A DNA stretch of 64,000 nucleotides from Brevundimonas sp. (GTDB taxonomy: Bacteria > Pseudomonadota > Alphaproteobacteria > Caulobacterales > Caulobacteraceae), in assembly GCF_030682035.1 (NCBI RefSeq), contig NZ_JAUXQZ010000025.1, positions 428,368-492,367 of the forward strand, in the 5' to 3' direction. A model generated the notes under the pieces. The model saw nothing but the letters and a program-made list of their open reading frames with translations, searched no databases and had not been told where the DNA came from. How positions within the stretch are numbered: the stretch's first letter is position 1; each line of letters opens with the position of its first letter. This document shows positions 31,281 through 31,310 of the stretch, in pieces. A program made the translations under genes and the position numbers.

Positions 31281-31310
31281 GGCCTGCCGCGCTTCGCGCT
31301 AGTTGAGGCC
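31281..31310 (-). promoter_or_regulatory. 5'-UTR two-stem hairpin, copy 5 (mdh leader)
   Basis: Sense: outer arms GGCCT/AGGCC, loop CAACTA, inner stem GCGC-GAA-GCGC, loop GGC, then the CCGGAGAAA ribosome-binding site. The 13-nt distance to the ATG is the same as for gshB. Confidence 0.78.

Follow-up and report, generated by a model that had tools for sequence, protein, structure and literature searches.

Hairpins in the window

The window, by which we mean the whole 64,000-nt stretch of Brevundimonas sp. DNA analysed here, contains six copies of a small hairpin at five loci. A 30-nt short-form copy (359..388, minus strand; E = 2.9e-10) lies 13 nt upstream of the start of gshB (1-345, minus strand; identity from an NCBIfam HMM). 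The second short copy, which has a GCCC/GGGC inner stem (7514..7543, plus strand; E = 1.7e-10), is found upstream of an HMM-confirmed DUF2975 gene (7677-8252), 9 nt past the upstream stop codon and 133 nt ahead of the called DUF2975 start. Two further short copies form a direct tandem pair upstream of a gene for a 50-aa protein (19079-19231, minus strand), the 3' member (19255..19284, minus strand) being 23 nt before the gene and the 5' member (19294..19323, minus strand; E = 1.3e-10) 62 nt before its start. They are separated by the 9-nt spacer CAAAACCCT (19285..19293, minus strand), which has the composition of flanking sequence, i.e., an A/C-rich 3' tail plus a 5' flank, as is typical for a repeat unit. 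The only long-form copy of the window (28305..28343, minus strand; E = 1.2e-10) is 17 nt upstream of the start of asd, the gene for aspartate-semialdehyde dehydrogenase (27241..28287, minus strand; PF01118 and PF02774), and the last short copy (31281..31310, minus strand; E = 1.8e-10) is 13 nt upstream of the start of mdh, the gene for malate dehydrogenase (30305..31267, minus strand; PF00056 and PF02866). The start-codon distances and gene contexts were obtained with a codon-usage gene caller on fetched genome stretches.

Read in the sense of the motif, the five short copies share the 30-nt pattern G[GC][GC]CT-CAANNN-GCGC(or GCCC)-GAA-GCGC(or GGGC)-GNN-AG[GC][GC]C, and the 39-nt copy ahead of asd reads GCCCT-CAAGTA-GCGA-GCGAC-CGC-GTCGC-GAGC-CC-AGGGC. 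All six hairpins of the initial annotation were recovered with the position, arms and fold that it had assigned to them. Our gene calls agreed with it that every copy is in the sense of the next gene (motif strands -, +, -, -, -, -) and that the copies at four of the loci are 13-23 nt from a start codon, and the names gshB, asd, mdh and DUF2975 were each supported by HMMs. It had not recognised the hairpin as a described RNA; we likewise obtained no match to the element among the curated covariance models of Rfam, even when the surroundings of mdh and asd were searched at a permissive threshold.

A family of short palindromes in the genome

The covariance-model search proposed in the initial annotation retrieved many further copies. 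Merging the results of two models, one built from five short copies and the other from eleven 40-nt copies, gave about 78 copies of 30-nt and 39-40-nt forms in the 2.9-Mb Brevundimonas-type genome, and the short-copy model recovered copies outside its training set elsewhere in the genome at E values of about 4e-11. A strict pattern matched the whole genome three times, and the reversed control had no match. About 16 of the 78 copies belong to a related set, often arranged in tandem pairs, which putatively flanks rRNA operons, this placement being based on the repeated context alone. Paired long-form copies with common flanks were observed at many contig edges of genome G000, at loci L055-L058, L067-L069, L075, L108 and others, which are probably rRNA-operon flanks.

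The family has a constant frame, arm-T-CAAGYA-GC…GC-GNTA-arm', with arms of 4-5 bp, and the frame encloses an interchangeable inner hairpin, which may be minimal (GCGAAGC), short (GCGCGAAGCGC) or long (GCGA-N5-CGC-N5'-GAGC). In the long form, whose consensus is GGCCT-CAAGCA-GCGA-N5-CGC-N5'-GAGC-GNN-AGGCC, the N5 arms are free to vary in sequence while their complementarity is kept, and the neighbouring GA/GA mismatch is conserved in most copies. The structure was paired in 99% of the cells for the 40-nt copies, and their covariation exceeded that of all 500 shuffles. The 10 bases 3' of the element form a conserved A/C-rich tail. RNA folding of the short copies and of the asd copy was modestly better than that of shuffles (z about -1.7), and the predicted folding energies of the copies as single-stranded DNA were not exceptional. 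We take the minimal inner hairpin, GCGAAGC, to be a DNA mini-hairpin of unusual stability, which offers a lead, not a proof, for a single-stranded DNA stage. Mini-hairpins of the GCGAAGC class are discussed in PMC10527192.

It is hardly conceivable that the copies are chance hairpins, of which GC-rich DNA such as this genome (68% GC) forms many short ones with folding energies as unexceptional as those above, and this explanation is refuted by the reversed-pattern control, the covariance-model E values of the non-training copies, the conserved alignment columns and the covariation above every shuffle. The hairpins are real and are members of a large family of tiny palindromic DNA repeats.

Placement and polarity relative to genes

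We tallied the placement of the 62 copies outside the putative rRNA set. Before start codons, 17 copies were in the sense orientation with their 3' end no more than 40 nt from the start, versus 2 antisense copies (p about 7e-4). Another 17 of the 62 were antisense with the 3' end toward a stop codon, in most cases at a distance of 1-12 nt. Nine copies were inside ORFs, eight of them sense and in frame and one antisense; the hosts of in-frame copies include lysA, tsaD, rpiA and glk, as recognised from their sequences. The nearest gene edge was faced by the 3' end in 34 copies and by the 5' end alone in 8. Together with the putative rRNA flanks, the copies fall into four placement classes, namely before starts, after stops, beside rRNA operons and inside proteins. 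The antisense copies after stops (e.g., G000:C3:376675-376714:+) are closer to the stop codons than the 5'-UTR copies are to the start codons, a difference that no explanation fits well.

The initial annotation had described the hairpin as sitting in front of five different genes, which is correct inside the window and is a sampling effect on the scale of the genome, in which 5'-UTR copies constitute about a quarter of the non-rRNA copies. It had also named random placement and orientation as the mark of an ordinary dispersed repeat, and the ratios of 17 to 2, 34 to 8 and 8 to 1 are not those of a random distribution. Since the placement is strongly polar and the copy ahead of asd has been kept with paired stems (see below), the family cannot be called an 'ordinary' randomly placed repeat, and some of its sites may be functional.

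Five other genomes of the genus gave a similar picture, with 5 sense and 2 antisense copies before starts, 18 antisense copies after stops and 4 copies inside ORFs, all sense, among 52 copies that were picked by a high long-form score and partly represent the same sites as in this genome, so that they are not fully independent. Twenty of these 52 sites adjoin a gene that also adjoins a copy here, 16 of them with matching side and orientation, one to two common neighbours being expected by chance, although the sites are not independent because several genomes supply the same gene. The recurrent neighbours include asd, obgE, rpsO and the gene after C36:1264. The recurrence at the same genes therefore implies either old retained copies or a strongly reproducible choice of target.

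Apart from housekeeping, the neighbouring genes have no theme in common, nor do they share a pathway. Genes for ribosomal proteins S15, L20, S4, L7/L12 and L36 (by HMM) and L35 (by sequence) are among them, an enrichment with p about 5e-5, calculated post hoc on the assumption that about 2800 genes include 55 ribosomal ones.

These observations bear on the reading of the element as a metabolite- or protein-responsive, riboswitch-like leader with gshB, asd, mdh and others as its regulon. All five loci of the window are sense leaders and four are near start codons, the unpaired CAA and GAA residues are conserved, and a promoter-like sequence upstream of the asd element is conserved across species by eye, all of which would suit such a leader. 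The reading is nevertheless very improbable, considering neighbours without a shared pathway, copies that are also antisense after stops and within ORFs, an interior hairpin exchangeable in both length and sequence and the negative Rfam search. A dedicated five-gene regulon was rejected, because housekeeping is all that the neighbours have in common and because copies are also found behind stop codons and inside ORFs. Cis-regulatory RNA, which the initial annotation had raised alongside a protein-binding site and an mRNA-stability element, is unsupported as a general explanation and may apply at a few leaders.

The copy in the asd leader

Among the fetched loci, the long form is at the same place of the asd leader in 16 of the 18 Brevundimonas-type loci that include the 5' end of asd, and it is missing in L141 and L195; the copy ahead of asd is kept through most of the genus Brevundimonas. 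We analysed a set of 18 orthologues, comprising the 16 loci, the window and L305. On the tree of the asd gene, one inner pair has undergone at least 10 changes and another has flipped between C-G and G-C at least 5 times, and all 18 sequences are still paired at both positions. The claim of the initial annotation that pairing is preserved while bases change is therefore borne out, and the covariation is genuine.

The manner of the change is another matter, as whole stems are swapped at once. Several pairs of the asd hairpin differ simultaneously between close sister species, and in L123 (12761-12920) an old, decaying copy and a new, intact copy are side by side. The decaying copy shares its inner stem with the sister L126, and the intact one, located downstream of the old ribosome-binding region and ahead of the start codon, has another stem. 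Because whole stems swap and the old and new copies of L123 adjoin, these data suggest that the asd hairpin changes through replacement by newly inserted copies rather than through slow compensation. Gene conversion between copies may be the alternative to insertion at this site. Under either process, standard covariation counts overstate slow compensation at asd.

Filled and empty sites, and tandem arrays

Comparison of related loci gave one clean pair of a filled and an empty site. An ORF for an HI0933-type protein has a 36-nt in-frame insert in L265 and is empty in the close relatives L267-L269, and no evident target-site duplication, a feature of MITEs along with the terminal repeats of a parent transposon, was seen at the insert. 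The same loop is also filled in L263, L264 and L266, within a different flank background. In L266 and L272, the HI0933-type ORF has an expanded 66-nt element in this loop, in which a second hairpin is apparently nested in the inner loop. Two species have in-frame copies in one loop of a desaturase, short in the first and long in the second, and the insertion points differ. Even close Brevundimonas species differ in whether the mdh leader has a copy. Several species have a short one there, L125 has a tandem pair, L143 has the long form, and many have none. Copy number differs widely between species. In the congener G009, we observed two direct tandem arrays of near-identical short copies, one of 7 (C1:618882-619139) and one of 12 (C1:667826-668295), with the copies spaced by 8-10 nt.

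A search for RAYT (Y1_Tnp, PF01797) found none in this genome nor in 23 of the 24 congeners searched, with control genomes positive, and mobilisation by RAYT was rejected for this genus on that ground.

Distribution among bacteria, plasmids and phages

Within the host's own family, 23 of the 24 genomes from the genus have the long form, and variants of it occur in three other genera. The minimal form of other genera is GCGCTCAAGCAGCGAAGCGATAGCGC. The constant-frame pattern matched 35 of 385 Alphaproteobacteria, and about eight alphaproteobacterial families have multi-copy matches, the insides of which are mostly hairpin-complementary. In a phylum-wide draw, the pattern had 4 isolated matches outside Alphaproteobacteria, none with a hairpin inside, which is the level of chance. 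The highest density, 62 pattern matches in 1.7 Mb, was observed in the alphaproteobacterium G257. In G027, from another family of the same order, we observed about 100 related copies, some of which adjoin further repeats, CTTCCCACTTTTGCTAAAAATGC, and have different arms, GTCCT/AGGAC, forming composite repeats. G524:C1 has, at four places, two element variants spaced by about 2470 nt, which perhaps flank rRNA operons.

The element is also carried by two alphaproteobacterial plasmids, from Roseibium porphyridii and Acuticoccus, and by 22 IMG/VR contigs, three of which were confirmed with phage structural genes. The contigs with copies include L333, L338, L345 and L347, and head, tail or terminase genes were present in L338, L345 and L347. 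L347 has two copies in sense just before start codons. The INPHARED phage records contained no match to the element.

Comparison with known repeat families

GTAG REPs, which are mobilised by RAYT/TnpA-REP transposases and are imperfect palindromes of 20-40 nt with tens of copies, intergenic and in part intragenic, dispersed and variable among species (PMC3733652, PMC8266576), resemble the present family in that it, too, consists of palindromes in the 20-50 nt range with many copies, mostly intergenic. They differ from it in two respects. RAYT, whose gene the GTAG REPs flank, is absent from this genome, and the invariant unpaired 5' GTAG is lacking, the base before AG being C or T plus A; CAAGYA-G contains GCAG in most long copies and is located inside the outer arms. 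CGTC REPs are likewise alphaproteobacterial palindromes without a dedicated transposase, and intragenic units occur (PMC3733652), but their unpaired terminal CGTC (or TGTC/CCTC) is absent here. Their stem is 8-9 bp long and has a loop of 4-5 nt, whereas the present element is built of an outer stem of 5 bp, an asymmetric internal loop and an inner hairpin. CGTC REPs are also mainly head-to-head dimers with negligible head-to-tail arrangement, as opposed to the direct tandems found here.

Rickettsia palindromic elements (RPEs) are palindromic DNA in frame inside protein genes, as are some of our copies, but they have been described as 105-146 bp (PMC2229807) as opposed to 26-40 nt here; RPE-4 and RPE-6 have been classed as CGTC REPs (PMC3733652). 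The CerM-associated intergenic repeats (CIRs) of the related genus Caulobacter are also abundant, intergenic and predicted to have paired arms, but they are about 110 bp long, have two arms and contain GANTC methylation sites (PMC2229807), whereas the present element is short and its consensus does not have GANTC. Identity with CIRs, CGTC REPs or GTAG REPs was rejected, the tested defining features of GTAG REPs (tag and RAYT) and of CGTC REPs (tag, stem build and head-to-head dimers) being absent. We found no published description of the family in the text of papers that need no subscription, and words of the element sequence matched only unrelated primers and oligonucleotides among the matches listed. 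Further untagged REP families are to be expected (PMC3733652).

Origin and possible roles of the hairpins

An improbable explanation is that the frame is read throughout the class by a conserved factor, which places polar copies at the edges of highly expressed genes and acts there; resident copies such as that of asd would then be renewed by overwriting, i.e., by transposition and not by point mutation.

Another, rather unlikely explanation regards the hairpin as an RNA or DNA element under selection to act in cis at gene edges, whether through a bound protein or through its structure alone. It would shield the ends of mRNAs, block read-through or set the translation of highly expressed genes, mobility being only its means of spreading. 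The sense bias before starts and the facing of gene edges by the 3' end, seen again in other genomes, argue for it, as do the same genes hit again across species, the survival of pairing through many changes in the 18 asd orthologues, the ribosomal protein genes among the neighbours and the RNA folding above shuffles. Against it are the wide variation of copy number among species, the mdh site empty in many close relatives and the in-frame copies inside enzymes, which require no such role. Moreover, stems change as whole cassettes, as expected from replacement, and a preference for insertion sites could give the same polarity.

The hairpins probably represent mobile DNA, not a dedicated RNA switch. 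They are likely to be copies of one family of very small palindromic DNA elements that are dispersed and non-autonomous, occur in Alphaproteobacteria and are similar to REPs and RPEs. The REP-like repeat that the initial annotation had offered as its alternative is the better supported one, given the number of copies, the tandems, the sites after stops, at rRNA flanks and in proteins, the empty sites and the carriage by phages, and the placement classes recur in the five other genomes. The mdh copy that comes and goes among close species, the differing insertion points in the desaturase, the adjoining old and new copies of L123, the plasmid copies, the related minimal, short and long forms across the class and the conserved 3' tail favour it as well. 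Several findings do count against it, namely that the PF01797 search yielded no mobilising enzyme, that the single clean empty site revealed no duplication, that polarity and cross-species reproducibility are far above the expectation for neutral insertion, that nearly all species have the asd copy and that ribosomal protein neighbours are apparently enriched. As such a mobile element, a single strand would fold into the hairpin, the constant frame would be recognised by a trans-acting enzyme encoded elsewhere, and a short A-rich 3' tail would be taken along upon insertion. A sense copy in front of a gene may survive because the hairpin stops short of a purine-rich ribosome-binding region that the tail has spared or provided, in which case the 5'-UTR copies would be a retained subset of insertions. 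The copy ahead of asd, almost never absent, may have acquired a function as a leader hairpin insulating the start site.

The palindromic repeat family described here is spread over Alphaproteobacteria and is apparently undescribed as far as the literature search reached. It combines a modular build, a fixed polarity to coding sequence and in-frame insertions in enzymes with a host genome that does not have RAYT. Strong stem covariation at an orthologous leader can arise through element replacement instead of stepwise compensation, a pitfall when RNAs are sought by their covariation. Should the leaders of asd, rpsO or obgE be functional, they would be regulatory leaders seeded by mobile hairpins.
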